Shown: positions 1,034 to 30,800 of the stretch, one piece after another
Position numbering within the stretch: position 1 is the first letter of the stretch
Layout of the letters: each line of letters starts with the position of its first letter
Origin: Terebella lapidaria
Taxonomy: Eukaryota > Annelida > Polychaeta > Terebellida > Terebellidae
Direction of reading: 5' to 3'
Assembly (NCBI GenBank): GCA_949152475.1
Contig: OX424558.1
Span: 34,110,651 to 34,174,650, forward strand
Length of the DNA: 64,000 nt
The notes under the pieces: model-generated
Databases searched by the model: none
Told to the model about the DNA's origin: nothing
The model's input: the letters and a program-made list of their open reading frames with translations, nothing else
Translations under genes and position numbers: made by a program

Positions 1034-4000
1034 TTAATGACGTTCGACCCTCCTCCGCCAGAAATCCAGTTGCTTACTGAGCGACGCCAAGTGACCACCC
1101 AGCTTGGAGGGGTTGACTAGGATTCTTGACGGGTCAGAGTACTGTTTGAAGCTGTTGTGCTCCCTCGGTGGACAGTAGTCCCACAAGGCGTCGTCCTTGT
1201 ACTCTTTGACGAACTTTCGCAAGTCAGAGCAGTAGCGTTCTGGTTGCCCTAGGGTTGTGGGGTGTGATGGTACCTGGCCTATTCCTGTCTGGAAAAGCCG
1301 CTGAATTTCCCGGCCAAATGTCCCACCCATCTTGCTGCAGCGGTTGAGTGTTGCCTCTGTGTACTGGCCTCGGGTGTGGGAAATCGTCTCTGAAATTTAT
1401 TACCACAAAAAGAATGCAATGGACAGCTGATGTATATGGGATTTTAGCAGAGATATGAAGGCAGAGTGACTGACCTTTGAACTCGTTGATGAGCATTTCG
1501 TTGATCTCATCAAGACCAACATTCCCTCCTTTGCGCCCTGTGAGGTTCCCCACACGCTCCCATGTCAGCTCATGTCGAACCCGGGCAGATTCCACACCAT
1601 GTACATCTGCAATATAGTGTAGAATCACAGTTCATGAGGTTGCATCAATATTTGGCCTTACCACCGCATTCATAGTGTTATGCACCACTTTTGTAAGCAT
1701 ATCGTGCAACATTTATTGATAAGTTAGAATTCGATTCCAATGTTGAACACTGCATTCTGAATTTAAGCATTGACTGTGCTCACTAGCTAAGAGTTGATGT
1801 CCAGCGATCAGGTATTTCGGGTGTCGTGAGGACCAGAACTCTGGAAGCGCAATCCGCCAAAACCGGATTATTTCTGGCCCATTCCCTTCTCTCACAACGT
1901 GGCGCTGAGAAAGGTGCATGAGACCGCGCCACAAGATGACTCTGGAGTGGTTGAGCACGTAGTCATCTCCACCCTCTTGGAGGCTGCACTCCTCAGAGCA
2001 ACACCAGTCGTCTGTGCAAAAATTGTAAAAGACATATATATGAGTTCACACTCATGAAACATTGAGTTCTTACGCTCACCAGGTTATTATACAATAGTTA
2101 TCGATATAATATGCAAGTATGATATATACAAGATGCATGGACTGTATATACGTGTGATAGGAACATACCGGGATTTTCACCGGCCTTGAGACCAACACAT
2201 GATGGATGGTAATACTCATGACGAGTACACTGGCTACCCATGGAGCATCTAATCATGTGCTGGTCTTCCTCGCCCCGTTTGCTTCTGCATAAGCAGTAGC
2301 CCAGCCCCTTGGCGTCGGCACATTGGTCACTGCAATACCAGAGGATTTGTTCATCTCTTGGAGGCTCGTCCACACAGGTGTAATGCAGCCACCCAGAAGG
2401 GCAGTCTGGATTCGCACATTGTGCCATGTCGCCGCCTTTTTCTAGATAACAGATAAGTATGGATTCTGCCTGTTTTCATGGATTAACAGTGACTGTATTT
2501 TCTGCATTCTGGCGTCTCTTTGGGAGACACAATTATTTTTGATACATACCCTCACGGCAGAAGCAGAAAGGGAAAATCGAAGTTGATTTCCTAGACCCCA
2601 GTGCCTCCCTCATGGCCTCAGCCGCCTCCCTCAGGCTGTCTTCGGAAGGAGGGCTCGACACCTGGTCCACTATCCTAACGGCTGATCGGTGAAGCCACTC
2701 TTGTTGGTCTGGTCCTTGCTGGTCGAGGCCCTCTGGCACATCACTGAGGTCGTCCATGGAGTTCAGTCGCATGAAGAGCAGGAGGAGGTATCCCTCTGTT
2801 ACAAACTGTATTTATGGGAAAATTTATTATGCTACATTGCATGTGCATTACCTGTGATATACATATTTCATAAACCCATATCGCATTGATTCAAACAAAG
2901 TGTGTGTATGACTGAATTTCAGTCAATGCTGAAACTTCACAACTGACCTTAATGAAATCCCAAACGTGGTGGAAATTGGACATTACATCAGACTTTAGAG
3001 ATGTGTGCCGGAACTTCTCTTTGATGTTGTACAGAGTGCCTCTGTCGGTGACACTGGTGCCCATGAATAGCATGTTCATTGTGTCCTGCAGCAGTGGGTT
3101 AGCATAAGTACCTGAATAATAGCATCAGCATGTAACCGAAGTATGTAACCGAATTTCACGTGCTTTACCTGTAGCATGATGGCTTCTTTGTGAAACTCCT
3201 GTGGAGTTTCAACGAAGCAGTCAAGTTGGGCCCTCCTGGTAGTTCCCCCGACCCGTGCCCTCTTGGCGTGAGTAACTTTTTCAACGGTGGCCTGGTCACC
3301 ATTCAAGATGATCTTCGGGGGCTCATCACCCGGAGGAACATATTGTGACATGTGCTCCAGCACCTATAATCATTGCATATCATATACCCAGCTGTGATTG
3401 ATAGAGTGGTCAGCTACAGATCTTGGACTCTGTTTGGCCTAATCATACCTGGATTACTCCTGCGGTTGATGATGGGTTGGCGTCTATCACCCCGAGATTG
3501 ACAACGTTTGACTGTCTCCCCATCTCCGTGGACTTCTCATGTGCAAGGTGCTTGCGCACAAAACCCCTCATCTTGGCCAGAGCTGGCACATGGTCCACCA
3601 GGATGTTCTTGACGACGTGAACCATGACGTCCTTGACAGCACGCCAGTCTTCATCCTGATATAAAAAATAGTTTTATCCCATCATTCTCCCTCCCATGTC
3701 CAAGCCCCTCAAGATTCATTACCCAGCTATACGTACAGTTGGCAGAAAAGTTTCTGGCTCCAAGGATGTTGCCTTTAGTTGTTCTTTGTCGTCCAGATGC
3801 AAGGACTCTGTCCGATGCTGAACCCCATAGCACAGTGACATCAGTAGAAATTTGTTCCCATGTTCCAGGCTCTGATGCTTACTGTGTACGTTTGTCTGGG
3901 TGTTGTCGAACCCTAGGCTGTATCCACTGGAAAGAATTTTTTGAGCAATTTCACATGTATTTTCAGTCTCTGGGGGAAACTCAGGATGGGGTGATCATCT

Positions 4001-10053: not shown

Positions 10054-12600
10054 ATGCCGCAGCAATATATTCGAAATGCACATTGTTTTCCCACGTCATT
10101 AGGGGCAATGACCACCCGCTTGGACGCTCCGCGTCGCTTGGACTGCCTCAGAGACTGTTTTGCCGACGCTGGATCGTCAGTCAAAATTATCCGTGCTGTC
10201 AGAAGGCTTCCTTCGTCGCATTCCACAGACGGCCAGACGCTGGCAGTCCCTTCTCGGGATGCTAGCGTCCACGGAAAAGTTAGTTCCGTTGGGCCGCCTG
10301 CACATGCGGCCTATTCAGCGGCATCTACACTCTCAATGGTCCCAGGTCACGGGGGACAGATCCCAGCTCGTGCAGGTCTCTCCGGAAGTCGTTTCCCATC
10401 TGCAATGGTGGCTGGATCCCGTCAATCTGCTCCGAGGGTCGTCATTCCGCCGGCCGCTTCCATCCAGGCACGTATTTACGGATGCCAGTATGGACGGCTG
10501 GGGCGCTCACTGGGACGACAGCGAGGTCTCGGGCACCTGGTCTTCGTCTCAGCAGGAATGGCACATAAACCTGTTGGAACTGGAGGCCGTGTTCTTGGCT
10601 CTCAGGCATTGGGAAACACATTTCCTCAATCAGGCTGTGTTGGTGGCCACCGACAACTCCACCGTTGTCGCTTACATCAACAAGCAGGGCGGTACGAAGT
10701 CCCAGTCGCTGTGCCAAGCCGCTATCGACCTCCTGCTCTGGTGTCACGACCGGGGTATTTCGCTTTTCGCGAGGCATATCCCTGGTCATATGAATGTTTG
10801 GGCGGACCGCCTCTCCCGGAGGGGCCAGGTCCAGGCCATGGAGTGGAGTCTTGCCCCCAGGGTATTCCAATCTCTCTGCGGCCTATGGGGCACGCCGATG
10901 GTCGATTTGTTTGCGACCCGGTGGAACCACAAACTTCCTTCGTTTGTGTCTCCCATTCCCGATCCCACGGCCATGTCAGTGGATGCGATGTCGACGTCCT
11001 GGGAGGGCATGTACGCGTATGCTTACCCCCCAGCGGTGTTGTTGGACAAGGTGATCGCCAAGTTTCGGACTCACCAGTGTCGCCTCCTGCTGATTGCTCC
11101 GTGTCTACCGCAGAGGTCGTGGTTCCCGGACCTTCTGGAGTTGATAGTAGACTTCCCTCGTCAGCTTCCGGATCGGTGGGACCTCCTCAAACAACCTCGC
11201 TCCAGCATGTTTCATCAGGCTCCCGCAAGTCTGAAGCTTCATGCCTGGATATTGTCGAGCGATGTTTCCGAAAGAAGGGATTTTCAAGGGAGGTGTCCGC
11301 TAGGATCGCCCGATCAAATCGAAAATCTTCTTTGGCAGTCTACCAATCGAAGTGGACTTCCTTCTGTGCTTGGTGTCGTCGCCGGAAGGTTAGTCCTTTC
11401 AGAGTCGATGCTCCCCTAATTTCCGAATTTCTTCTCGAAAAGTTCAATGAAGGGCGAGCTCCATCCACGATCGCGGGTTACCGTACGGCTATCGCGAAGA
11501 CTCTAAGACCCAAACTTGGGATCGATTTTGGTCATGATCAAGGTTTGACTGCGTTGATTAATAGTTTCGAGATCGAAAGACCGAAAGCTAGGAACCCGGT
11601 TCCTGAGTGGGATCTATCGCTTGTTCTCAACGTCTTAAGAAAAGATCCGTTCGAACCCCTTGAGCGGGCCTCACTAAAGTTTCTGACGTTTAAGACGGTC
11701 TTCCTTTTGGCTCTGGCTTCCGGGAAGCGACGGAGTGAGCTCCACGCTCTGTCCTTTTCCAAAGTTAAGTGGAAGTCGGATGGCTCCTCGGTTCTCCTCG
11801 GAGTCATTCCCTCCTTTCTGGCCAAAACTCAATTAGCAGGTACGCCATTATTGAGCTTTTCCATTCCCGCCCTGACTCCTTCTCTGGGGCCGGGCCTGGA
11901 GGAAGACGCGAAGCTTTGTCCCGTGCGAGCCCTCCGCATCTACGTTAATCGTACGCGTGAGCTGCATCTCGGCAAGCGTTTGCTTTTCGTGTCCTATCTT
12001 AAGGATTTTCCAAATGATATCCGTCCTGCTACGATCTCATCTTGGATCAAGAAGTGTGTTAGATTTTGCTATGAAAAGTCACAGGCGAAAAAATCCACAG
12101 GTTTCAGAGTCAAAGCGCATGATGTGAGGGCTCTCGCGGCTTCACTTGCCTTTACAAATAAAGTGTCTCTGAAGGATGTCATGTCTGCCTGTACCTGGAA
12201 ATCTCATAACACATTCACTTCTTTCTATCTCAGGGAGTTAGCTTGGGAGGATGACTCCGGCCTCCAGCTTGGACGACTGGTGGCGGCGGAGCGTGTAGTC
12301 CAGCTGTAGATACCTGTAAATAGATCAACACGCCTCTGTACAGATGCACCTGAGGTCGACTCCCAGGGGAGTTGCTCCTCTTCTTTGGCGAGGGAAATTT
12401 TTGTTCTTCTGCAAGAGGAAAGTCACCTCTGCAGAGCCCCTGCTCGTCTCCATGCATCTGAAGGTAATTCAGGCGTGTATTATGGTTTAGTTGTAAATAT
12501 CCTGTAAATATGTATTTTCGACTTAAAATTATAATTTAAAAGTAAAACACAATATTTACTACTTTCAATGGATATTTCCTACTCTCACACATCGGTGATG
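10054..12600 (+). mobile_element. DIRS-like tyrosine-recombinase retroelement, partial fossil
   Basis: Two overlapping plus-strand reading frames are visible. One (10,160-11,419) has RNase H features (FTDASMDGWGAHW, ELEAVFLALRHWE, ATDNSTVVAYINK). The other, ending at 12,309, carries a tyrosine recombinase from about 11,250, with the conserved SGKRRSELHAL segment and a C-terminal HDVRALAASLAF segment. Overlapping frames are usual in DIRS elements. The element is broken: the gag-like and most reverse-transcriptase regions expected at its 5' side are not seen. The 3' non-coding part seems to run to about 12,600. The long open frames suggest a fairly recent copy. It lies just upstream of the first recognised EFCAB6-like exon, on the same strand. 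The 5' limit is approximate. Confidence 0.75.
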
Positions 12601-12657
12601 AAATTCCCGGGAGAGGGTTAAACCCACCTCCTTTGGTTATTCTGATATAACCCAAAG

Positions 12658-12756
12658 AGTTTATTATAGAGGTAGTGGTATGGCAATAAATAGGAAGTTT
12701 TAACTTGTTTAAAACCAGTATTTATTACATACCTACCTCTATAATAAACACGATTA
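12658..12756. mobile_element. about 100-bp MITE, TIR GTTTATTATAGAGGTA
   Basis: The two ends are near-perfect inverted copies around a shared core containing AGTTTTAACTTG and AGTATTTATTACATA. Sequences of the same family recur at 12,985-13,050, 28,770-28,946 and 30,550-30,660, all in EFCAB6-like introns, so this is a small, locally abundant non-autonomous family. It has no coding capacity. Confidence 0.7.
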
Positions 12757-12830
12757 TTCTCCCTCCCGCCTCCCCTGCCTTAACCAGGTGGGCAAATTAA
12801 TGGCGGCTAAGGTCAATCATATGACCGGTG

Positions 12831-12838
12831 TGACGTCA
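12831..12838. promoter_or_regulatory. full CRE palindrome TGACGTCA
   Basis: A consensus CREB/ATF site lies 62 bases upstream of the first in-frame ATG of the EFCAB6-like model. It may mark a promoter if that ATG is the true start, but it also lies within the repeat bounded by ACTCTCACACATC. The sequence match is certain; the function is inferred. Confidence 0.35.
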
Positions 12839-12899
12839 CATCTACACCGCGGGGAATCTGAGATGTGTGAGAGTAATTTCCTTCAATTTCGAGTTCGAG

Positions 12900-15800
12900 A
12901 TGGATGTCAGGAATTTTAAGAAAATTCTTGTGACATTCATTTCTCTCTCCTCTTCTTTGAATGCCAAGGTAAGATTACCCAAAGAGTTTATTATAGAGGT
13001 AGGTATGTAATAAATACTGGTTTTAAACAAGTTAAAACTTCCTTTTAAATACTGGTATTGAAGTATATATTGTACTTTTTGAAAGCATAATATGTGCATA
13101 TATTCCACATGGCTATTGAGAAGGTGCATATTGCAGTTGATATAAAACACGACAAATGATTTTGTTACATGTTCACATGACTACGAAATTTAACAAGCAA
13201 ATTTCTACCCGTATTGTGTATTTCCCAGGTGGATGTCAACCCGAATGGCACCGTCAAATACTGTGATTTCTTGGACAAGTTTCAAGGCAGAGAGAAGATT
13301 GTGAAACCCGAACCAAAGAAAACGGGCCAAACACGGTCAGTGCAAATTACATAATACTATAAAATTAGTTTCCTTACTTGCAATATTCGTGTCAATAATC
13401 TCAATATGTTGATTCCACTGAATCTGTTTGTAGCATGCTGTATCATTATATTTACTCAGTATAAGTTCATGTAAATAGAAGATGTAATTATATGTGTGTG
13501 TGTCTTTTTTTGCCACAGATATGTAGATACTCTACCAGTGCAGGAGGGGAATACCGACATGTTGGAGAAGCTGTTGAAAGAAAAGGTGAAAAGAAATAGT
13601 TTACTATATATTATTATTTCAAAATAAGTGTTGAACAATATGTACAATTATATATCGTTTTCAGAATTATACAGAATTCTTTTCTTGAATTCCCAATAAT
13701 TGATATTGTGTTATTTTACAAATAGTTGGTGATTGTGAAAAGTAGGAATTAGAATTCAAGTCTGTTTATTAAATTGGTTTCGTAATCCGTAGATCAACAA
13801 AAACCTGAAGAATGTCATCAAGGCGTTACGACTGTATGACTACAACCGAGACTGTCAGATCCAGCGTCACGAACTGCGTAAAGTCTTGGAGAATTACTGC
13901 TTTCGCATGACTGACGCACAATTCAACAAGTGTGTAAACAGTAATTGCACACATTATACAAAGCTTGTACAAAGCTCATTAGAGAGGTATAAGTTTTTAG
14001 CGCCAAATCACTGAGGAATATCATCTGTTGTGAACCATCCATGTGACATTCGGCGCAAAAATTCTGGATACACCATGGTATAGTCATATTAAATAACGTT
14101 ATGACGTCATATTACGGTACCTCTAAAACTGTGCTACCAGCTGGCGATTAGGGTTTTTTTTGCTCATGCCCTATTGTTGTCATTTATTTACAAACAGCAT
14201 TTTTTTTGTAAATTTTTAACAAATTTTCTCGAACATGGATCATGTCAAAAACAAATTCTCACCTTTTAACGAATACATAATTAATCACCAATGGTTACTA
14301 TCACTGATACCCAGGCTGTACCAGCGGTACGACTTCCAGCACAGGGGCCTTCTCGACTATCGACAGTTCCTATATCAGCTCGGGATTTCAGTGGACCGAC
14401 AACATCAGCCACCTTCTGCTGGACTCAAAGGATGTAAGTCCCAACCAACTAACATATGGAGAATGAATCCATTGTTTTTAATGAAATTCATATGTTTTGA
14501 TAGATACATTGTATTAGTATTTGAATTTCTTGATCAATTTCGGTGGATATTGTTACCCTCATCAAACCAGCAGGTTTGTATTCAATAATATATTTTTGTC
14601 TTGTTTAGCTATACAATGGCAGGAACAAGGCTCCCCCAGCAAACCCGGACCAATTTTACGGAAAGTGGCAGACCCTAGACTGGCTGGCATGACCATTGAC
14701 CAAATCGAAGTGGAATTCCGCAAAAAGGCAAAAAATATTGCTGATATTGTAATGACAAAAATTATCTCTGCCCGTTGTTGTAAAAGAAAACTGTTGTTTA
14801 CAACAATCAAAGAAACTTGTATTTCTAATTCTACCACATGTATGTACAAATTTACACTTTTCTCTCATTTTATTGAATTAATTACCAATCTATTTTATTC
14901 AAAGTCAATTGCTATATGAATATATAAATGTTTGAATGTGATGTCATTCACAGATGAGGGAGAATTACGCCAACCTCAAGCGAATGTTCCTGGTCTTCGA
15001 CAAACATCTCGATGGTTTCATCTCGCTAGAAGATCTGAAATCTGTTCTCAACCAGTTCACAATTCCCATGAGCGACCAGATCTTTTATCAAGTAATGGAC
15101 AGGTTTGTAGGATTTACTTTGTCGTCAGACACAGAATGCCACTCCCATTAAAGCATATATGTTATTGCATTTCACAACATGTTATCCTAAACAGTTATCA
15201 TACAATTTTGCAGATTTGGGATAAAAGCCTCAGGGAAAGTCTCGTGGGAGTTTTTCCTCGAGAAGTTTCAGGATCCACAGAGTCATGGAAATGGTCAGAC
15301 GATTCCGATCAAGTCGACTCACAAGTGAGACATTAATTTCTTTGACATTATAACATTGAGTTTACTACAATACTGTGCTTCATTTACTCTCAAAGTCCCC
15401 AAAATTTATACAAATTTATACGTAAATTCCATGGTTTTTCCCAAGGTATTTCCCAATCCGCGGAGCTGATGAAAAGATGGACATCAAAGATGTTGTACGA
15501 TTACTCCACGAGCACGTTGTCAGCGGATACTCCTCATTCAAACAAGCATTCCTGGAGATCGACAAGGTAAACATGGTTACGGTTGTATACCAAATATACA
15601 TACTGCAACAGAGTCAAACAGATAGGATTTGGATTTGATAAATATATGGATGTTATGCATCATGGAAATTTTGTGAATTCTGCTCAAGCCTCAGAAATTT
15701 GATTATGAAAAGGAATGTTCAGAAGAAGTGGATAAGTGGATAAATATTAGAACCATTGTATACGATCTTGTTCTCAATTTTACCATCACTTGTCAGAATT

Positions 15801-18800
15801 GAATTTCAATAATTATTATGAAATGTCTCAATTTCCCTGCCTTCGTAGAACCGAGATGGGAAGATTTCTCGAAAGGAGCTGAGGAAGATCCTGAACAACT
15901 TCAAGTTCCGGATCTCAGAGGACCAGTTCCGGGAGCTGATGATTCTTCTGGATCCACAGCACACGAATTTCATCGCCTACCACAAGTTTCTGGATCTTTT
16001 CGAGGAGAAAGAAAGCAAGGTTTGTGCAACTTCATCATATATTTGGGTAGACTTGAAAGGTTTCAAAATCCATTCCTTCACAAAAAACTGGCGATCAAAA
16101 CGATGTTTGGAATGTTGCAGGAAGCACACAAGTGGCTGATTTCTTGTCACAGATACAATGATATACAGAAACCTGCTATACTAGCCTGGGAAACAGTGAG
16201 TTTAATGTTTTTCCAATTTCTATGATCTAACCTTGTTGAAATACTGTCATGACTCAATCCGTGATATAAATATTTCGTATTTTTTCTTACATCTCTCATT
16301 GCACCTATACAACATCTTTCCAAATTCTTACAATGTTTTGACGATTGTATCGGAGGAAACCGTCATATTTCCCCCTCAGATTGAAGACCTGCTTGTAGAA
16401 AAGATTGAAGAACATTGGAAACCCATAGCTGAAAGTCTAGCCAAGAAAGATCCTACAGGCTCCGGCAGAGTTCACCCGAAGGCCCTACGCAAGATCATCG
16501 AGAAATACTGCATGCCTCTGTCAGATGACCACTACAACAAGTGAGTAGACAGTTATCAGTATGCAATATATCATGCTGATATCACAGGTAAAATAATGCA
16601 ATAAAAAACATATTTCTGAATTTAGTGCAAGAACTTCTCAGATCCATTCAAAACTTGAAAGAACATCACGTAAATCAAAATATGATCTGCAGAAATAATT
16701 TGAAACATGATATATTTACGAAAATTTTTCAAAAAAAAAAAATTTCCTTGCAGCCTCATCACACGGCTGGCCGAGGATAAAGACGAAAAAGGCAAGATCG
16801 ATTATGCAGAGTTTTTTGGTCGACTTGGGGTCTCGATGAGACCCGGTGATGTGGAAGGCGTGAGCACAAAGATCACCAAAGGCAGTGAGGAAACTGAGAG
16901 CCGCAGAAACGCTGATCTACAGGATAGGTACTCAAAATTCAAATTTTTTCAAAAGCTTTTGCTTGTACATGTACATGTAAAATTTTAACTGGAATTTTCT
17001 TGTATAGGGGTAGTCCGGAATATAAAATCAAAAATTTACATTTTCTAGCAATGTTTTTCTGACAGCTGCTGACAATATGTGATAAGGTATTATTCGTGTT
17101 ATCAATAAAACCAGCATGACTACATACACTTGATGTTGCAATCCTCAATGTGAATCTGTACTTCATCATTATGATCCTAGCCATTATTGTGCATGGATAT
17201 TTTCATATTAGTCAGGCAGCCAGATAGCTTAACCCTGCACCGACTGATATATTATTTTTCTCACTGGATTCTATACCTTTGCAATCTCTACATTTATTAT
17301 CAGCCGGATATCAAGCTGATATCCTTGAGCATTTTGAGAAATCCAAGATGGCCGCCAAGATGGCTGCCGGCCGAGGATTGCTGCCTAGGAAATACAACTT
17401 TTTAAGTATTGGGCCTAGAATCAATTGTAATACCACTTTTCCTGCTGATTTTAGGATGACCAATTCATTTGTGAGGTTAATTTTTCATTTTGAGGTCAGG
17501 AACAGTGTGATATCCAAGATGGCTGCCAAGATGGCCGCCGATTGAAAACCAGTCAGATATTTTTACCGTTCGATGTCTGATATATTGTTTTTCTTTGACT
17601 TTTTTTCTTTGACTTTGTGAACTTTACATTGAATATCAGCCTAATAAAAAGCGGATTACCTTGGGCAATTCGTGGAATCCAAGATGGCGGCCAAAATGGC
17701 CGCCGGCCGATGATCGCTGCCTAGAAAATACAACTTATTATATAATGGGCCTAGATTCAATTGTAATACCACATTTCCAGCTGATTTTATGGTGAGCAAT
17801 CCATTCGTGAGGTTAGTTTTTCAATTTGAGGTCAATAACAAGGTGATATACCATGTTCTAATTTATTCAACATGTAGAGTAGTTGTAGTTCCATGATAGC
17901 ACATAGGAAAATGGTAACTTGTACTTGCTGACTCAGATAACTGTGCCTGATGAGGTATGATTGGTGTCATACTTCGAGACCAAGAATGAAAAAAAGCCTT
18001 GTTTAAAGTCAATTAGCATTGATAATAAACAGAAAATTTTTGGGATACAGAGAACTTGAATCGCCTTAAATTGTGACATTGCTGGGCATATAATTAAAAG
18101 AACAATAACCGAATGCATGCCAGACATTTATTCAAAAAGCTGTATAAGATATGTTGGTGGAAATACCACTGGTATAAAAATACATAATAAAGACCATCTT
18201 AGGTTGAGAGTATATTTAAACACATGACTCGAAACAAATGATGATAGCTGGTAGCATCATCGCCGTACTTATTTGTTGGAACATCCATCTTCCCCTTTAC
18301 AGTGACAGAAGAGGGTACAAGTCAGTCTATTTGCCTTGCAGCTACACCTCGTAGTCGCACATGAATTCGTGCTGCTGCAGCCACATTTGATGAGCTTGAG
18401 TAGATCGGCAGGAGCTAGGGGGGTTCCAGGGGGAACAATCGTCGGGAAGAGAATTGTTCTACCATCAGGACGGTACCACCCATGCTCTGTTGGAGCGAGA
18501 ACAGGTGGATTTGTCTTGAGACAATCACGCCAGGTGACCACTGCTAAGTGACCGCGAAGTGCATTTTCTTTAAATGCTGTCTCTGTTGGAGGAAGCGAAC
18601 AGAGCTTGGGCGGCTCAAGAGCATTTCGTCTCATCTTGTTCTGCCACACTTCCACTCTTGCTGCATTCAGGGAGTCACTGTGACTCATTTTGTAACATGC
18701 TAAGATGAAAGCCTCTGCCTCAGCCAATAACTTCTGGTATTGCTCCACAGGAAGCGAGCTGTCGCCGAACACGTGGAACTTCACTGAACCTTCATAAGAA

Positions 18801-21800
18801 CAACATGGAATTCAATCATCATATTACGTGCACAATAATATATTTGTATGCATGGTGGTGTTTGTTCATGCGTTTTTAGCGTATTTGAAAAGCTAATTAC
18901 CTGCTCTCAAAACTTTAATTGCCATGCCTTTTCCAATGCCATAATGACTGGCCACCGTATCACAGCCCGTCAGAGCATGCGCCGCAAGGAGTCCAGGAAT
19001 AATCGAGAGGTTCTCCTGCACAGTTGCATCGATATCTATTACAGCTCGGCCCCTGAGTGGTGACTCCAGATACACATTGCCTGCCTTTATGGATCCAGCA
19101 TGACGGAAGTGTAGAAGCAAAGCAAAAACGTCTGTGTCATCTGCGACAACGACGAGGGCCTTGTTTTCGGCTGTGTGATGAGCAGCCTAACCCAAACAGA
19201 GCAATGAATAGTGTGTCAACCTACAAACAAATACAAAACATTATTGATGGAGACCCGTATAGAAACCACCCATAATTTGTCACCTGTTGCACGATGATTG
19301 TGTCGGCCTCGTCTTGGGAAGTCCTCAGATCATCTCGAAGGATTAGCATTCCAGATTCAGTATCACTAGCAGGACCAGGTATCTCAAACGGAACAGGATC
19401 AGGGCCAGTGATGATAAGAGTGTGAGCGACGGGGTCGTCCTTGTGATCTTCAAGATCCTGTATGATCATATTGATTATCTGGACCTTATTGAGCGTTACG
19501 GAGAATAGAAGGGACTGTGCTGGCAGGCGAGATGTGCGTTTTAGCTTGAAAACTCGACTCGCCCCTTTGTCTCGTCTCCATCGCGTGACCTCCTTGGTAC
19601 TTCCACTGATGTATCTGAAAACAAATTAAACAAATTAAATATAGGAAGATTTTCTACATTGTGCATTTTTGTACTCGAATTGTTACACAATAAAACATCA
19701 AACTACAGGAATAGAATTTTGGTGAAAATCTGATATTCTTTTTCTCGCAAAATGGCCTGATTCTCGCAGATTATAATTTAGTATATGAGAAAATGATTCT
19801 CGCAAAAAAAAATATGGAAATTTAACTCTGAACGTAATCAGTAAGGTTTTGCGAAAGTGTCTCCATGGACGATTCAAGATTTACCGGTCAAAGATGAGAT
19901 AGACATCGGCTGATTCTTGGTAATGTCTGATGTGCTTGCGGAATGTGTCAATATACGTCTGCACTGTCGCACTACCACCTGGAAAGTCCACAGCCCAAAG
20001 CACTGCACAGCCATCGAGAAATATGGCACTATTCTCCAGACCCCTTCTGGACCTTTCAACTGCCAGTTCTTTCTTGAGGACACTCTTGGGTGTAGTTCGC
20101 ATCTGCCCATCGTCATCGAACAAAGATGTTGCAACAGGTGCGAGTTCTGTGACCAACATGTCAGAGATTGTTGGTACTCCATCACGTTGACTGACTTGTA
20201 GACCAAGGGCACGAGCATAGAATATTCCAACGTCTACAATCTTTTGTCCATTGATGTTGATAGCTTTCTTGTTGGCGGTCCAAGTGACAACATTGATCTT
20301 GACTGGCTCATGGAACGCCTCAGGCCACTCTGCTTCAAACTTTCCGAGCTGCGTTTTGCCTAGTGCGACTGCATCATCAACATTGATAGCCTCGTTCATC
20401 ATAACCTCGCCAGTTGCGATATTGATTAGGTCCTTGGGATGCTCTTCTGGGTTTAGTGGGTCAATACACACAGACAACTTATCACGGAGAGCTCGACGAT
20501 CAATCCCGTCTGCTTTCATGCGTGCCCTGCTCTCCTCCTTGTGCGTCATTTGAACGTTTTCTGCATCAGGGTTCCGCATCTCCTCGAGACCAGTTGTGAG
20601 TGACAGGCAATCATGGTAGCTGAAGGCCCAGGTCTTAATGCTCTCTGGGTTTGTTGTTGACCCAACAACACCCTCTGCAACATGGATTTTGACTAGAATT
20701 TTATGACTGACCATCCTAAATATCAATGTATAGTTATTACTTTGATATCATGGGCATGAATATATTCTCTATTCGCTCACCTGGACCATGACCTTTCTTC
20801 ATCCAAGTTGTCTCGATTGCCATATCGCTCCAAATGCCGTTCCATATTCCAGCACGCAGATGGATTGTGTGGTCTCCTTTCATGAAAGCCTCTCGCACAG
20901 AATCAGGCAGGCGCTCCATCATGCGGAGGTAGGCGACACCATACCGGAGGTACTGATGATGCTTGGCGGCAAAGAACAGAGGGAGACACTCCTCAACGCA
21001 TTTGATGTGGAGGGCATAATCACCTGTAAAGCGAAACAAGGCATTGTAATAACCTCAGTATTGATATTATGAGTCGTAGAGGTATTATTTGTGCCCAGTA
21101 ACATTAACAATAGTATTAGTATTATCAGTTTATCATGCAGGATAGTGTGAACAACTACATGTAAAAGGAGCTTGTTCAAATGATTGATTAACTCCATGAT
21201 TGTTCACCTTCTCGCTCTGCTCGGACAAACTTCATGCACAGGAGTGTCGGTCGAATAATCACATTGATCCAGAATTTTGTTGTCCTGCTCTGCGTGCTGA
21301 GGGTGTCTAGTTGAGACTGTAACTCTTGCATAGATAAGATGTCTGGAGTGAGAATCGGGCGAAGGAGCTCTTCTGTCAGCATCACAAGAGCACGGAAATT
21401 CTGCGGATACTTTTTTCCAGAGAGCATTTTAGCCACACCAGCAAATGCAGCACCAAGGATTTCTGCACAACCACTGTCAGCTGCCAACCCCCCGATGCAT
21501 CCAATAACATTGGTGAGGAAATGCATCCCGCCAAGTCTTGGTATTAGGTAGCTGAACTCCTGAGGATTGTCCCATTTTATTTGGACTGCAATCTTGAACA
21601 GCTGTTGGTCTGCTGTGTACAAAGTGTACTCCTGGCCAGCTGCCATGGTGATCTGTTTGGCTTTGATCATGGAGGTGTACACTGTAGATGGATCAGCTGG
21701 TTTTGCCATAATAAGTGGGTGGTAGATGATGTGAGTTTTTGCGGCGTGCATGTGACCTTGGCATCTGGATTGATGGGTGTTCCAGCCACTCCATTCCGGG

Positions 21801-24800
21801 ACCATATCTTCTTCAGAACTGATGATTGACTGGAGGAGGAAAATTCCTTCAAGTACATGGCAACAAAGAATCATTGTCATACTAACTGTATTATTTACTG
21901 CCGAATAGAAATACATACCTTCAGAAACATAAAGTCCAGGTCACCAGCTCTCTCGTAGGATATTCGCTGAGCCTCGAAGTATTCATCAGGCAGACCATGT
22001 GGAGGCAAAACTGGAGGAATTGGCTTATCTCTACTGTTGTATGGGATTATCTCATCTTCTTCCTCGAGGCAAATGGACTTGGACATTTCAGCTTTGCTGA
22101 TACGGGGTATGGTTTCTGAAACTGGTGCTGCAGGAGGTTTTGAATGAGTTTCGATCGTCGCCATGTCATGGGTCGAGACTAACCCATTGGGACTGCTCAG
22201 TTCAGCATCAAAATTGTCTACAATTACTTGCACGAGTCCGTCCACAGTGACTGGCTGTTGTCGTTCACTACAGATCTGGGCATATTTCTCCACTGCAGAA
22301 GACCGCTTAAAGCGCAGCAACTCGTCATATGAGCAACATACGAGATAATCATGCATATGCATGATGGTTTTCTTTTTGTGGAAGTACACCGCAAGTGCAA
22401 TTTGTAGAGGGGTAGGATGTTTCTTGATGGCACTGGTAATGATGTTCCCAATGAGGAGAGACGGAAGGCCTTGGTCTCCAAGGCACACTTTACTGAGTAA
22501 TTGCATAAGGGTATCAGATGCCGACTCTTCTGCAGTCTCTCTAGAGATTTTGGTACTGTAGGTCCGAGACTGGTATTCAAGCTCCATGCATTCCTTCCTA
22601 ATGCGCTTCCCAACCACATTCAGTGCTGCCTCCAGATTGTCGTCATTCTCATCATCATCCTTTATCATACTGTGTGTAGCAACCGTATTGTCACTGAAGA
22701 ATACTACAGATCGGTAGCCAGGTGCTGAGAGTACAACAAGATCCTTCATCTCATCAGAAAGGGAAGTTATTAGTTTAGATCGCCTGACTGGCTTTCCACC
22801 GAGTTCCACATACCGCTCCATCAATTGTACAGAGTCCCATTTTTGGGTTCGTTGACATTGCATCTCGTTGACAAGTAACATTAACGCATTTTGTGTGAAG
22901 TCTGTTGATGAATTCTTGCTTTCACCAGGACGAGACCGGCCGCTGAAAAATCGTGAATAGCATTCTTTATGGTAACGCGCATTAGCAGTGTGAAGGTCAG
23001 CCGCTCTGAAAGTAAGATCAGCTAAGCGTTCAAGCACATCCCCTGCCCACTGATCTGCTCTTTCAAAACATTTGTCTCTTATTCTCTCCTCTACTGCATC
23101 AGTTGTCTGGGTACCACGTCTCTTCTGTTCTGTTTCCTTCACGAGAAAGGCTGGAACCCATCGACTAGGGTTCTTTGAATCTTGGTGAACATTGCATGAT
23201 TCGTGGCAATAGAAGCATTGATGTGTCCAATCAAAAGGTGGTCCTGTTTTTGAACGTGTTCTTTTCTCTGGTATAGAAGACGAAATCACAGATGTTCCTT
23301 TTCTTTTTCTTGATAACCGTTTGGCCTTTGTGAGGTATTTTGTCACACATGCTTTATGATATTTCCCCTGATAGTTGGGGTCAATTTTCAATTTGTTCTG
23401 AAGTTGAGAATGCAAGATATCACCTTGTATTTTGCTGGCTTCCGTAATTTTTGTCAGTCTCTGTCCGTCACTCTGGCTCACTTGCAGTTTTGCGTCTGCT
23501 GAACAATTGTAGCAAAAGCTGAAAAGGCACTCATCAGCCATTGCTTGAGTTAACTTTCCACAAGTAATATCTAGTAAACACTAGATCTACTAATAATGCC
23601 ATTCATTGATTATCAGTATCCTGATGAATGAATGTGTCCACTACTATCACCAGAGTCAGAGAACTCTCTGCTATTAGTTAGACATATGAATAAGACTGTG
23701 TTATAACAAAAACGAAATGACGTAAATGACAATCGTCTCTCTGAATGCCATACTACAATCTCACATCTAGCTGCCAGGATTGCATCGGTCCATGAGACAA
23801 AATGGTAGACAATAGAAATATACAGAGGGGAATCTCTCTATTTTAAGTTCTTTGCTAAAATCATTTTTTGTTCCTAGGACGTCTGAAAAGTACACATCTA
23901 AAGTGGATGTGGACAATATTTGATAACCAGATCAATTGAAACTATAACGTTGGCTATATGTGATAATATCACAATATGAACACTGTCCATCAATCATACC
24001 TCATCAGGCAAATTTATTTGAGTCAAATTAGTACAAATTACAATTTTCCTATGTGCATCGATGCAACTACAATTGTTAGACTATGGTATCATCATGTTGA
24101 ATTAATTAGAACATGACATATATTACTTTGTTATTGACCTCAAATTGAAAAATAAACCTCACAAATGGATTGGTCATCCTGAAGTCAGCTGAAAAAATGG
24201 TACTACAATTGATTCTAGGACCAATAATTGAAAAGTTGTAGTTTCTAGGCAGTTGTTTTCCGTCGGGGGCCATCTTGGCGGCCATCTTTGCTTGGATATC
24301 ACATTGTTCCTGACCTCAAATTGAAAAATTAACTTCAAAAATGGATTGGTCGTCCTAAAGTCACGTGAAAAAGTGGTACTACAATTGATTCTAGGAACAT
24401 AATTGAAAAATTGTATTTTATAGGCAACTCGGCGGCCATCTTGGCAGCCATCTTGGATATCAACTTGAACTTAACCTCAAATTGAAAAAATAACCTCATA
24501 AATGGTTTGGTCATCCAAAAATCAGTTGAAAAAGTGGTATTACAATAGTTTCTAAGACAAATAGTTAAAAAGTTGTATTTTGTAGGCAGTGTTATTTGGT
24601 CGGCAGCCATCTTGGCGGCCATCTTGGATTTCTCAAATTGCTCAAGGATATCCGCTTGATATCCGGTTGATATTCAATGAATATGTCCTATGGTAATAAA
24701 ATCCACTGAGAAAACCAATATATCGGTCGGTGCAGGGTAAGGCCAAAAAATCGGCTTTGGCTGCCTGACTATATATGTTTCATCAGTACCCAAATGCATG

Positions 24801-27800
24801 GTTCAATTTAGCACCTCCAAGTACATGTGTATGCACAACTAGGATTTAAATTACTTTATGTCGCACACTGAATTTGTTTGTTCATTCTGGACAGAGTCCA
24901 TCCATCTTTACAGACGATTGAAAAAATTTTCAAAAACCAAAAATATTGTGATAAATATATCTCTTTTGTCTATTTAGGGGCTATGGTATAGAAATCATTG
25001 TGACAAATTGAAAAAATAAATTTCATTTATACCCCCTGTAGACAACACCAGGCTGATGATTCTACGGCCAACAGGGCGTCAACCATGAGTGTAGACGAGA
25101 TTATTGTAAGACTGCGGGACAAGATGGCGCAGTACTCGACCCAGATACGCAAGTCCTTCAAGCAGTACAGTCTCAGTGGCAAGGGCAAAGTGTCCAAAAA
25201 GGACTTCAGGAAGGTCAGGGACGTGGCAGCTAGGGTTCATTCGTATGGTGTCTTGACTGAATTTCAATATTCCCTGTAATTTATGGCAATAGAAATTTTA
25301 TGACCAAAACTATAACCATAATAGGGTGTATGTATTATATTTTCTGAACCCTTGAGACAGTAACCTCAGCCAGTTGTTGTGCTGACAAAACTGCAAGAGA
25401 TACCCCGGTATATTCATCTAAATATATTCATGGTGAATTGAAGGTTAAAGTGTTGATTCAATTAGAAACAAACACTCAGTTACTGTTTGTCTCCTACCTG
25501 CAGGTTCTAGAAACTATAGGTTTCTATCTAAGCGATGAACAATTCAAGGAACTGTGCGCAAAACTCTCCTTCCACCAAAGCTACATGACTTACATGGACT
25601 TCGTCATGAACTTTGAGGATCCAAGAATTGACGGACCGTCAGAGGCACTGCTAAAGATTAACAACCATCGAGTGAACAGAATTAGAGGGGATGAGTATAG
25701 TATGACTGCTGAACAGGTCGAGAAAGCGCTACTTCATAAACTTCGGGAAAACTTTGAGGTACATTTAAGGTGATGGACCGTATCAGGGAATTCTTTTTGA
25801 AAGTGAATATGAGGAAAGACTGGGGGAAACCAAGAGTTAAACAGACGAAGCTAAACTTAGAATATTAAGATTGAAGTTTTAAAGAGCTTCCATTTCATCG
25901 TAGGACTTGCGAGGAGCTTTCTACAAGTTTGACGATGATCACAACGGCCTTGTAACGAAGAAGAACTTCCGACGAATGCTGGACTCTTTCATGTTTATTC
26001 TGAGTGATGAAGAATTTGAACGTTTCTGTCAAATAATCGGCGTGACCAACAAGTCCAAGATCAGCTACCGAGACTTCCTCAAAGCCTTTGAGTTGAGAGA
26101 TACGGCCGAGGGTCACAAATGGCTTAACTCCACGCACAAGTTCGTAGATTTCTTTGAACGCTATGAATATATTACTCAGATGCTCATTGTGCACAGTAGA
26201 TTTTATTTTATAGATGTTGTTTAACCCATATATGTTTTTATAACCACTTCTAAAGAGTGATTTGAATGGCAATGGTTGTCGGGTTTTGCACATTGCTGTG
26301 CATGGTATCAACACCATCAACAACAAGTTATTTCAGACTTGACTTTGAAGAAAGATAGCCTTACACATCCTTTGCACATTTCTCAGGTATAACCCAGTAC
26401 CACCAACAAAGCTGCTAACTGCAGAAGAGGTCCATGCTTTGCTGGCTGTGAAAGCTCACCAACAGTATAAAGATCTGGCCAAGGTATGTGATCAGTTTCT
26501 CTCTAGTATTAGCTTATATTCTACAAATATACACATGTTTGCCATCATTCCTGATTTTTTTCCTCAGTTAAGCAGCAGTGAATTATAATAAACATTGTCA
26601 TTGAAGTATTTCTCCTTTTCAATCATTTCGCAGGCATTCCGAGTGATGGACTCGTCGAGTAATGGAGTCATCTCCAAAAACGAGCTGCGGGAAACTCTCT
26701 ACAGGTTCATGATGCCCATGACGAAACAGGAGTTCAAGAGGCTGTGGGCAAGGTGGGTGAATCTTTCTGTGAAATGAATATATGTGTCTGGAGAAATGAG
26801 AGGGCAATGGAATCCATGAAGATCAGAAATAAAATCAGTCAAAGGGGCAAATGGAGACAAGAAAAATTGAGTGTGAAATTCCTGCAGTTGAACCAATTAG
26901 TGATCTGGAAATCGGTGATACAACTCTCATCTTTTTAAAAATATCATACAACCTGATATTTGCATGCACCAGGTATGATCCGAACGGCAATGGAAAAATA
27001 AGCCACCAAGACTTCCTCACACATCTGTCGGGGGAGCAGTTTGCACCAGGTGACGACAAGGGAACGTCCGAGAAAATTGCGGAGACAAGTCGAGTAAACC
27101 TGGAGATTCATCATCAGAACCAGCTGGACAAACAGCAGAAGATCATGGAGAGTCAAGCTGACCGCTCAGCAGTCTTTAGTGTAAAGGAACTGCTTCAGCA
27201 ACTCAGGTGAATTGCTGTGCTAAATTTGGTGTATGATAGTTTTGTATTGCTGTAGTTGACTGTGTTATGAACTGAATTTGTAAGTCACACATTTAAGAGT
27301 ATTTTTATTGCACAAAAAAGTGAGATGAAAAAATTTGGTAATCAATTTTGATCATGTTTTGAGAACACATATATATGCATTGCACTTGATTTAAATATGT
27401 AATGTATTCACCCGAATACACAAAACTATAATGCATTTATATCACGTTTATGAATTGACCTGACTAGATGCAACTCATCGAATACTCATGAATATATTTA
27501 TAAATCATATATGTGACCCTGAAATATTGCTTTCCACAACCCCCCAGAGACCAGATCCGAGATAAGTACAAGGATTTCCACACAGCGTTTAAAGCATACG
27601 ACAAGCGTCAGCGCGGCTTCCTCACCTCCGCAAACATACAGAAAGTCCTTGTCGACTTCAACTACTTCTTGGATGATGATCAGTACTACGACTTGTTGGA
27701 GAAGTAAGAAACTCGCAAAACAGCTCGCCCGCTCAACGTGATGTAAATTTCTGAAAAATAATATGAAAAGTCTACCGGTAATTGAATAAACATAAGATTG

Positions 27801-30800
27801 ATAGAAATTGTTCTTGTGGGTTTTTTGTCTCATTGCCATCACTCATGCACCTCTATAGTGAACACCTTCCTGATCATCCAATATTGTTTGTTATAGAGGT
27901 TAGTATGAAACTAACTCCCTGGTTCTTGCAGACTGGAGCTGGTCAAACCGAAGGCCCGACTGACGTACCCCGACTTTCTCCGAGTGTTTGAGGAGGGACG
28001 CAAGGATCATTACAGCGCTGCGCCCGCTGACGCCCACTACCCGCAAGTCCAGAATGCACATCTCAGCAACGACCAGGCCCAGGCCAAGCTCAGGGAAACC
28101 ATAGCCAAGGAATTAGATGTCTTGGATAGTGTAAGTGATCTTGAGTTTAAGTTCAATATCATTTACCGGTACTGTCTGGCATTTTGAATGAATGAATATG
28201 ACTCCAGTTGGTATAGTACCTAGTAATGTTATGAGGCAGTTCTCTGTGAACACAGATCTATACTTTCTTGTCTCAAATAGGACATGTAAATGCCTAGGCC
28301 AAGTTTTCACAAATAATTGCATTCAAATTTACGGAAAAAATTTTTAGTTGAATAATTCGTCCTTCACGCTTACAGGCTTTCCAAGCGCTGGACCCCAAGT
28401 ACACGGGGAGGATCGCAGTTCCAGAGTTCCGCAGAATCCTGGATAACTTCTGCTTCAAGATGACGGATGAACAGTTCAAGCATCTGACTGGCAGCCTCGC
28501 CATCAGCCAGGACAACACGGTCGACTACACTGCATTCGTTACAGGCTTCAAGGATAATGATATGCTGGTCAGTTCTTGATCTAAACTCAACAACTGAATT
28601 CTGCGTGCACCTCAAAAATGTTATTTGAGATACACGAGCATTGTTTTTTCATGCATCGCACACATGAACAGCAGCTGCACATGTAAATTTGTAACTTTGA
28701 TCTTTCCATGTAAAATACTGTTGCAATTCACTTTGAGTCATTCCTTTCATTTATATTTATTGCCATACTTCTACCTCTATAATACTTTGGAGTGTTTATA
28801 ATAGGGGTAGGTATGTAATAAATACTTGCTTCAAACAGGTTAAAACTTCCTATTTATGTCCATACTACTACCTCTATAATAAACACTTTGCAAAAATAAT
28901 GTAATAAATACTTGCTTCAAACAGGTTAAAACTTCCTTTTTATTCTCAGGAGCCAATAAACTGGGTAGACTCCATCAAGCAGTACACACAGAACAACGAG
29001 CCCCTTCTACAAACGCAAGAGGACGTTGACAGTCACATTCGCGAGGTGGTTTCCGCACGATTCAATGCCATCGCTCGTGCCATTTCTGACATCGATTACG
29101 CTAAGATTGGGGTCGTCTCCAAGGACGATTTCAAAGGGATTGTCTGCAAATATTTAGCCCGACTGACCGAGGATCAGGTAAGGATCAGTGCATTGCTGTT
29201 CTGTTGTGGCAACCTTTCACCAATTGAAATTTAATTCCTGAAATTTCGAAAATGCAAGTAAAAGATTCTACATATGAGAAAGTTTTGTGCAACAAATTTG
29301 TCAACAATAGAGACATGTTACTCATGATATGAAGATCACTTCATCTATGCATGTTGATGAAAAGTTATTTATGGTAGCCATATATATACTAAAGCTACAT
29401 GCACAGCATTTTTACTTTATTTCCAGTTCGATGAGCTCTGGGATCGACTGAAAGTGAACGAGTTCGATAACTTGGACTACCATGATTTTTTCCGACGCTA
29501 CTCTGGAGATTTGCCGCGGCCTGCCACATCGTCAGGGTTACCCGCCCGGCGACCTAGCACCAGCAACTCTGAAACAGGACGGGTGAGGGCTTCGAGATCC
29601 TAACCTTAGTTGTCTCTTTGTAGTCTCGTGTATGAGTATGAAAGAAAATAAAAGTCAGGGATTTACGATGAATTATATTAGATGGGAATTCGGTAAAAAT
29701 ATCACTTGCGAGTCAATTGAAGACAATTAAACTTTGCATTAATCTTTTTACAGCTACAATGTACAGGTATATTCACAAAACCATGAACCAAGCTTATTCC
29801 TGAATAAATAGTTGTAATAACTTAATCATACATAATAATCTTTTATCATACATGTAGAATCTGTACAGTTCTTGGAGCAACTCCAGCAACCAGCCCGCTC
29901 GGCCGTTCACGCCGATGGTCAATGCCGAGGACACGGAGAGACGCCTGAAGGATGTCATCTACAAGCACTGGAAGGACATCCAGCGACAGTGTCGAGCAGG
30001 CGACCCACACAACTCCGGGCAGATCTCACAGCGAGACTTCAAGTGTGAGTCCGGGCCTGTAGCTCGCTGATCGAGACTGATTTCTCTAGTGTGCGAAAAT
30101 TTTAGCTCAACAGCCTGAAATTCATACGTGGAACTAAAATGCATTCATAACAATTCAGGAATCATAACCTTGTTACTGTTACTCGTGTCAGAAACCTACT
30201 TGTTTCTATTCGTGTTGAATGAAATTAAGTACCTTAAGAAATCAGTTGCAAATGCGATATTATTTTTTTCGCTTTGACAGTTATCATGGGCCGATACGGT
30301 TCCAATATCTCCGATGACGACATGAGAAAACTGCTGCTGAAGTATGACCTGCGAAACAACCAGCAGTTCTGCTACGCCGAGTTCCTGCGACATTTCGTCT
30401 TACACATGCGACCCAACGAGCCGGAGATCGGGCCGCTCCTCTCCCGCCGGAAGGTACAACCAGCAAAGGTGAGCAGTCAAGAATGGTACACAGTTCAGGA
30501 AGTTCACATAGAGGCTGTACATTGACCAGTACATATATAATGTTGAATATATAATGTATTGCCATACACAACCTCTATAATAAACACTAGTCAAAAGGAG
30601 GGGCAGAAATTGTTGTTATTGCCATTATTGCCCCACTTTTACCTCTATAATAACACTAGTTAGGAAGGACGGGGATTTTTATTCCATCAGTGTATTCATC
30701 GCCCTTATTTACACTTTTTTGTAAAACAATTTCAATATAGGATGTGCAGGAAATTAGGACAATATTGGAAAGGATTCAATGAATGAACCACTCTTCTTTT

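Follow-up and report, generated by a model that had tools for sequence, protein, structure and literature searches.

The stretch analysed here, 64,000 nucleotides from the annelid Terebella lapidaria (C4:34110651-34174650 of a 761.6-Mb genome; hereafter the window, whose positions serve as coordinates), carries a 7,563-bp element at 17209..24771, inside an intron of an EFCAB6-like gene. The element is very probably a cut-and-paste DNA transposon of Academ type (AcademX-like) that appears to be intact, a class assignment reached by comparison with published descriptions of Academ. A first-pass annotation of the same DNA had proposed a transposon like Academ, probably autonomous and with a nuclease of XPG type, and this proposal is supported. 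The predicted protein appears to combine a DUF6589-like core with seven acidic residues of nuclease type and has EXO1 as its top, though weak, match in the PDB. The element probably moved recently, and it shares with other families of the genome a conserved subterminal box whose core equals the consensus binding site of the host factor YY1.

The ends of the element were fixed by comparison with an empty site. Joined with one TAT, the window flanks are 100% identical over 393 bp to C4:34016958-34017350 (L041), which also holds the sole genomic occurrence of the exact 26-base empty junction. This empty copy lies about 110 kb from the window site, with a likeness that extends 1.9 kb at 98%, where the EFCAB6-like region is present a second time in rearranged form (C4:34007000-34027300; L041, L043, and L044), with the order of segments changed and with pieces that match window positions 13021-15153 at 97.7%, 15148-16951 at 95.9%, 10141-13046 at 99.6%, and 24963-28500 at 99.97%. 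The second copy is a recent duplication or a misplaced haplotype. Either the element inserted after the two region copies had separated, or it departed from the other one by a precise excision. A second comparison was provided by a sister element, L011, inserted in a Helitron-like repeat whose joined letters, in our reading, may encode a Helitron PIF1 helicase. The joined flanks of L011 match 41 listed places, 37 of them straight across the junction at 80-99%; among the three places fetched, L036 and L037 show a single GCA, and L038 is without the exact probe. The flanks of another copy, L010, matched only themselves in the genome.

The comparison of empty with filled sites, which the first-pass annotation had pointed to as a way of reading the target duplication, could therefore be done within this genome and gives 3 bp, TAT for the window element and GCA for L011. 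The annotation had also noted that the TA beside both ends does not fit the duplication of Academ and had raised a distinct branch as a possibility. That the TA sets the element apart from Academ is not supported, since the termini are TAGTCAGG...CCTGACTA, of the TAG...CTA type, with the terminal TA as the element's own letters, and since the 3-bp duplication fits AcademX. TA as a 2-bp target duplication is ruled out by the two empty-site comparisons, in both of which it would predict a different empty sequence, and, TA being inside the element, there is no target preference for it. Of the limits first given, 17209-24773, the start was kept and the end moved to 24771.

Eighteen two-ended copies, whose ends were located without using the duplication, extend this result: the duplication is 3 bp in 15 of them and 4 bp in one (TATC in L058), and no matching duplication is present in L012 and L028, in which the right end is altered. 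The 3-bp duplications are TAT (window), ACA (L010), GCA (L011), TCA (L013), GTG (L014), ATA (L015), AAG (L016), and CTA (L019) in the window family and its sister copies, and TGA (L029), TTT (L030), ATA (L031), AAA (L032), TAT (L033), CCA (L034), and ATA (L035) in other families. L055 (TAT), L056 (CAA), and L057 (TAA) were kept out of the tally because a matching duplication was a criterion for picking their ends; also outside it are copies with a single kind of end (L017, L018, L020, L021, L022, L023, L024, L025, and L026) and L027, with no end.

The long inverted ends announced by the first-pass annotation, and expected of Academ and AcademX, are present. The terminal inverted repeats are imperfect and about 760-780 bp long, with arms of 315, 223, and 174 nt and shorter pieces reaching 17966/23988 that are 77-91% complementary; the left end aligns with the right end at 75% identity over query positions 1-758. 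Within the inverted repeats are tandem repeats of about 161-176 bp, the one in the right repeat being of about 161 bp.

Three near-full copies, located on C1 and C5, differ from the window element at 54 of 7,537 positions (L010, 99.28% identity), 77 of 7,508 (L011, 98.97%), and 192 of 6,462 (L012, 97.03%). Against the window copy, the ratio of nonsynonymous to synonymous differences per site (pN/pS) is 0.31 for L010, 0.42 for L011, and 0.62 for L012; two partial copies with large deletions give 0.51 (L013) and 0.71 (L014). These ratios, computed on small counts (12.5 to 75 nonsynonymous changes), suggest that coding changes are held back. The mobility that had been raised as a possibility is now probable, because close copies have different 3-bp duplications, because an empty copy of the same site exists, and because pN/pS falls to 0.31 and 0.42 in the two closest copies. 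Searches of the genome with the left-end DNA, the exon 1 protein, and the nuclease part of L030 returned 83, 81, and 150 rows, respectively (the last from 417 first-look candidates), each row being a piece and not an element. Far from being a single copy with no relatives, the window element has several copies and many relatives, and it clearly belongs to a large and varied population.

The transposase gene is predicted to have seven exons, all introns being GT-AG with consistent phases and without any internal stop. The structure described in the first-pass annotation thus holds; the length of 1,469 residues becomes 1,471 codons plus a stop. Support for the splicing model comes from two intronless relatives that align with the spliced product from end to end: L030 (1,467 amino acids used) with residues 1-1471 at 39% identity and L031 (1,497 amino acids) with residues 1-1470 at 36%. 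A third relative, L032 (1,470 amino acids), has one intron, at the position and in the phase of the fourth intron of the window gene. The related genes L030, L031, L032, and window 18269-23541 thus have 0, 0, 1, and 6 introns, and the intron shared by the last two indicates that introns were lost or gained within the transposon lineage.

Two groups of residues are invariant in all five proteins compared, down to about 24% identity with the window protein in the case of L033 (a 1,636-codon frame, 1,625 amino acids from the first Met). The first comprises D442, N443, D445, D615, H644, E695, D815, and E819, and in our reading would hold an RNase-H-type (DDE-like) triad. The second, D1050, D1092, E1195, D1197, D1220, D1222, and D1279, would correspond to the seven metal-binding residues of FEN1/EXO1, at what we take to be the matching FEN1 positions; the exons of a host gene that we take for EXO1 (L052) carry the corresponding motifs (FDG with SKKEV, EAD, EDSD, and LSGCDY..PGIG). 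DUF6589 (PF20231) was matched by all four proteins scanned, the window protein and three relatives, at E-values up to 1, and L031 exceeds the 27-bit cut-off with 32.5 bits. A profile of the whole protein searched against the PDB placed EXO1 best (E-value of 0.52; four of five rows). The Pfam scans of the four proteins returned no helicase domain. Apart from the weak EXO1 matches of the nuclease part, the Pfam and PDB searches named no nonmobile host family, the outcome that would have spoken against a transposon.

Several points weigh against this interpretation. DUF6589 stays below its cut-off on the window protein (17 bits) and on L030 (22.6 bits), and the PDB matches of the nuclease part are weak, with EXO1 at E-values of 0.36-0.87 (four of six rows) next to unrelated chains at 0.64 and 1.8. 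A genome search with Pfam XPG_I gave 12 rows, none of them at a place listed in the Academ searches; among these we identified L052, an EXO1-like host gene, and L049, a ciliate-like FEN1, and no others. Misplacement of the other haplotype in the assembly might account for the empty copy, as might precise departure of the element from that site. Lastly, L010, L011, and L012 are broken by frame-breaking gaps, leaving the window copy as the sole open one of the four near-full copies; it may be a source copy.

The Academ assignment rests on published descriptions, and the element might instead represent a superfamily of its own, as yet unnamed, that is close to Academ and has fixed TA ends. Ends of the TAG...CTA type do occur in 16 of the 18 two-ended copies, L012 and L028 departing from it at one end each; however, a nuclease-bearing protein and duplications of 3-4 bp are published traits of AcademX, and a TA within the element implies no target preference, so that we regard a separate superfamily as improbable. 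That repeats happen to surround a host gene of domesticated origin, or a relic that is no longer active, would account for a single open copy among four, yet it is hardly credible, given that duplications and flanks differ from copy to copy, that an empty copy of the window site and 99% copies exist, and that the same architecture of gene plus ends recurs in several families.

Other Academ-like sequences were encountered in the course of these searches. L033, L034, and L035 (C3:1.05 Mb, C5:11.55 Mb, and C9:24.04 Mb) form another family, of about 6.26 kb, in which the 1,636-codon frame is open in all three copies; identity to L033 is 99.5-99.7%, and each copy is flanked by a 3-bp duplication of its own. 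Matches to the nuclease domain recur about 4.88 kb apart (C15:20970135, 20975019, and 20979903; C1:35405524 and 35410405), a spacing that suggests tandem copies of an Academ-like unit. In the window itself, positions 3440-3670 on the minus strand gave a DUF6589 match of 27.1 bits, just above the cut-off, in a 76-codon frame with one internal stop, perhaps a second Academ-like relic. Facing ends 24 kb apart (C2:34818351-34842620) and 29 kb apart (C13:6465488-6494677) could belong to unusually long or nested elements; neither pair has a clean shared duplication, the C2 ends having CCC versus CAC and the C13 ends being altered. Relatives sought in viral contigs (36 pattern matches) and in bacterial and archaeal genomes (90) were in no case confirmed by tblastn.

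The subterminal box is the second main feature of the element. With at most one mismatch, AAGATGGCNGCC occurs 15 times in the window, 12 of them inside the element, versus 0.51 expected by shuffling, and the element boxes form three head-to-tail pairs in each inverted repeat, spaced by 165-171 bp and in mirror order. We took a census of 10 families and 20 ends, in which L010, L011, L013, L014, and three sister copies do not count as families and in which a matching duplication guided the choice of ends for L055, L056, and L057. A CAARATGGCYGCC box lies 136-156 bp from the ends and points inward in 8 of the 10 families (window, L029, L030 at one end, L031, L032, L055, L056, and L058); L057 has only a weaker form (ACAATGGCCGCT) at one end, and L033 has no box at either end. 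The shorter ATGGCNGC is found at 16 of 20 ends (L033 lacks it at both ends, L030 and L057 at one end each), and AAGATGGCNGCC with at most one mismatch is found at 15 of 20, at offsets of 130-165, where 100 shuffles gave a mean of 0.03 ends and a maximum of 1. An unbiased scan for 8-mers across the 10 families ranked ATGGCCGC first (nine families), followed by TGGCCGCC (eight) and AAAATGGC (seven), against at most five in shuffles; the T-rich TTTTTTTA is present in six.

The number and spacing of the boxes vary by family; they recur every 163-165 bp in L031 and every 168-200 bp in L032. When families are compared by blastn, most of the shared patches measure 15-60 bp, and many surround the box. 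Some pairs share longer stretches (177 bp at 69% for L055-L056 and 123 bp at 67% for L029-L032), and a 53-bp patch common to the window and L057 lies beyond the box. Genome-wide, the pattern TAGTCNGG-N(126-154)-AARATGGCNGCC has 899 matches (443 + 456, some ends being counted twice owing to paired boxes), versus 0 for the backwards pattern and 15 for a flipped box, and about a dozen kinds of terminus were counted by eye among the matches listed, the first hundred or so of the 899. Many matches that start with TAGTCGGGCATGTACGGGGGG have C-runs of varying length and often form facing pairs 1-3 kb apart with the box (e.g., C1:13969976-13972710); they are probably abundant nonautonomous Academ families. 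Placement is not strict: in L015, L016, and L019, the copies of the sister subfamily, boxes are present at a distance from the ends as well, and L056 has a single box-like match, bearing a mismatch, that faces outward. The box was also considered as a translation start (AAG ATG GC), which is ruled out because it points inward from both ends, whereas the gene runs from one end only.

What binds the box can be approached through its core, CAAGATGGC, which is the other-strand reading of GCCATCTTG. The latter is given, in PMC7481187, as the YY1 consensus and as the conserved 9-bp TR5 element of lancelet ProtoRAG, at which YY1 is described as binding, repressing the RAG-like genes, suppressing transposition, and helping the recombinase to pick the right ends; AAgATGGCggcg is likewise named as a YY1-binding motif in PMC4669652. 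A YY1-type site is thus present in the inverted repeats, CAARATGGC being found near at least one end in 8 of the 10 families. At the position left free in the JASPAR motif, as quoted in PMC7481187, the boxes have G in 22 of 36 cases and A in 13 of 36, and they depart from that motif at one letter, with C or T in 34 of 36 where the motif has G.

YY1 binding to the box is, on this motif likeness, a good guess, and its main rival is a site for the transposase. That the boxes are the transposase's own binding site only, their likeness to YY1 sites being coincidental, has in our estimation an even chance: the most constant letters include the 3'-side GCC, outside the YY1 core, C or T mostly stands where the YY1 motif has G, and number and spacing differ by family as in subterminal repeats of transposases. 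On the other hand, the CAARATGGC core is kept in families whose proteins are only 36-45% identical to that of the window, a divergence at which a site bound by the transposase itself should have drifted, and it equals on the other strand both the YY1 consensus and the YY1 site of ProtoRAG. The host genome is assumed, on general grounds, to encode YY1. We put forward tentatively, as a proposal somewhat short of an even chance, that Academ transposons have a host partner in common, YY1 or a zinc-finger protein of YY1 type. The box, which points inward from a distance of roughly one nucleosome (136-156 bp) and in some families is repeated every ~165 bp, would recruit the factor to activate or hold back the transposase gene and to label the true ends.

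Our working model for the transposition reaction is as follows. The transposase would bind the ends, aided by the subterminal boxes, and its RNase-H-like core (D442 or D445, D615, and E819) would cut the ends and join them to the target. Joining would leave 3-nt gaps, whose repair would yield the 3-bp duplication. The XPG/FEN-like domain might nick or trim the strand left uncut by the core, or process flaps, and the boxes may be host YY1 sites that tune gene expression and the choice of ends.

Features of the element in window coordinates
Feature	Position	Strand	Remarks
Left 3-bp target duplication, TAT	17206..17208	.	Single TAT in empty site L041
Right 3-bp target duplication, TAT	24772..24774	.	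Same empty-site basis
Whole element	17209..24771	.	Begins TAGTCAGGCAGCC, finishes GGCTGCCTGACTA; from copies and empty site
Left terminal inverted repeat	17209..17966	+	Imperfect; internal ~165-bp tandem repeats
Right terminal inverted repeat	23988..24771	-	
Box pair 1	17345..17368	+	Head-to-tail pair of AAGATGGCNGCC
Box pair 2	17516..17539	+	
Box pair 3	17681..17704	+	Second unit with 1 mismatch
Right-end box pair, outermost	24602..24625	-	
Right-end box pair, middle	24431..24454	-	
Right-end box pair, innermost	24265..24288	-	One unit with 1 mismatch
Predicted transposase gene	18269..23541	-	7 exons, 1,471 codons + stop
Exon 1	21919..23541	-	541 codons; N-terminal Cys/His residues; invariant D442, D445
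Exon 2	21208..21829	-	Invariant D615, H644, E695
Exon 3	20781..21023	-	Invariant D815, E819 (E819, candidate third catalytic residue)
Exon 4	19885..20674	-	First nuclease motifs at its end, D1050 and D1092 (FDRY)
Exon 5	19284..19614	-	Nuclease E1195-A-D1197
Exon 6	18901..19186	-	Nuclease DDTD (D1220, D1222), GCD (D1279)
Exon 7	18269..18789	-	C-terminal cysteine cluster (CXC-like); stop

The location inside an EFCAB6-like intron, as first annotated, is confirmed by the flanking exons, whose joined translations match EFCAB6 chains best on both sides (E-values of 1.7e-29 on the left and 5.3e-51 on the right). The left and right pieces align with residues 163-239 and 615-737, respectively, of chain 7rro_t, and the left piece aligns with residues 797-876 of chain 9cpc_1P; the EFCAB6-like protein is built of repeated EF-hands. 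The host is a flagellar-protein gene.

Elsewhere in the assembly, the frames of a mitochondrial contig, C438, read as nad3, nad2, cox1, cox2, atp8, and cox3, all on one strand and in this order; AGA and TGA serve as sense codons. This is the annelid gene order, so that the host is most likely an annelid on this evidence too. A further cox1-like match lies on C417 (L046). C403 has a FEN1-like frame with in-frame TAA/TAG, as in ciliates, and C436 has XPG_I matches with in-frame TAA (L047-L049 on these two contigs). By their sequences, C403, C436, and C417 look like contaminants.

In the open-licence literature searched, which offered only short mentions of Academ, we found no Academ transposition assay. 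The element looks autonomous and was probably mobile recently; with its exact ends, its spliced gene, and an empty site available, it makes Academ transposition testable at the bench. As for the box, it turns the vague question of which host proteins DNA transposons use into a direct test, that of YY1 binding at Academ ends as at ProtoRAG ends.

Among known systems, the closest is AcademX. According to PMC10045372, AcademX has a nuclease and duplications of 3-4 bp, AcademH has a helicase and duplications of 9-10 bp, and both belong to one superfamily; Academ is stated to encode a DDD/E transposase in PMC9587614. The window element resembles AcademX in its large, putatively DDE-type protein with a candidate XPG-like nuclease and in the duplications of 3-4 bp; no difference emerged from this comparison of descriptions, and the descriptions consulted are silent on a conserved subterminal box. 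With AcademH it shares the superfamily as published, and a common DUF6589-type core is plausible; identity with AcademH is ruled out by the lack of any helicase match and by the length of the duplication, 3 bp in both empty-site comparisons. The nucleases FEN1, EXO1, and XPG agree with the window protein in the seven acidic positions, in their order, and in their local context (D, FD, E-A-D, D-x-D, and GCD), whereas the window protein is too weak a match for Pfam XPG_I and reaches only an E-value of 0.36 with EXO1. ProtoRAG, lastly, has inverted repeats with the conserved 9-bp TR5 element, the other-strand equivalent of the box core, but it differs in its transposase and in its 5-bp duplication, its YY1 binding is experimental where ours is predicted, and its site seems to be oriented oppositely relative to the end. 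If YY1 does act at the box, two unrelated transposon groups, lancelet ProtoRAG and annelid Academ, would have settled on the same host factor.

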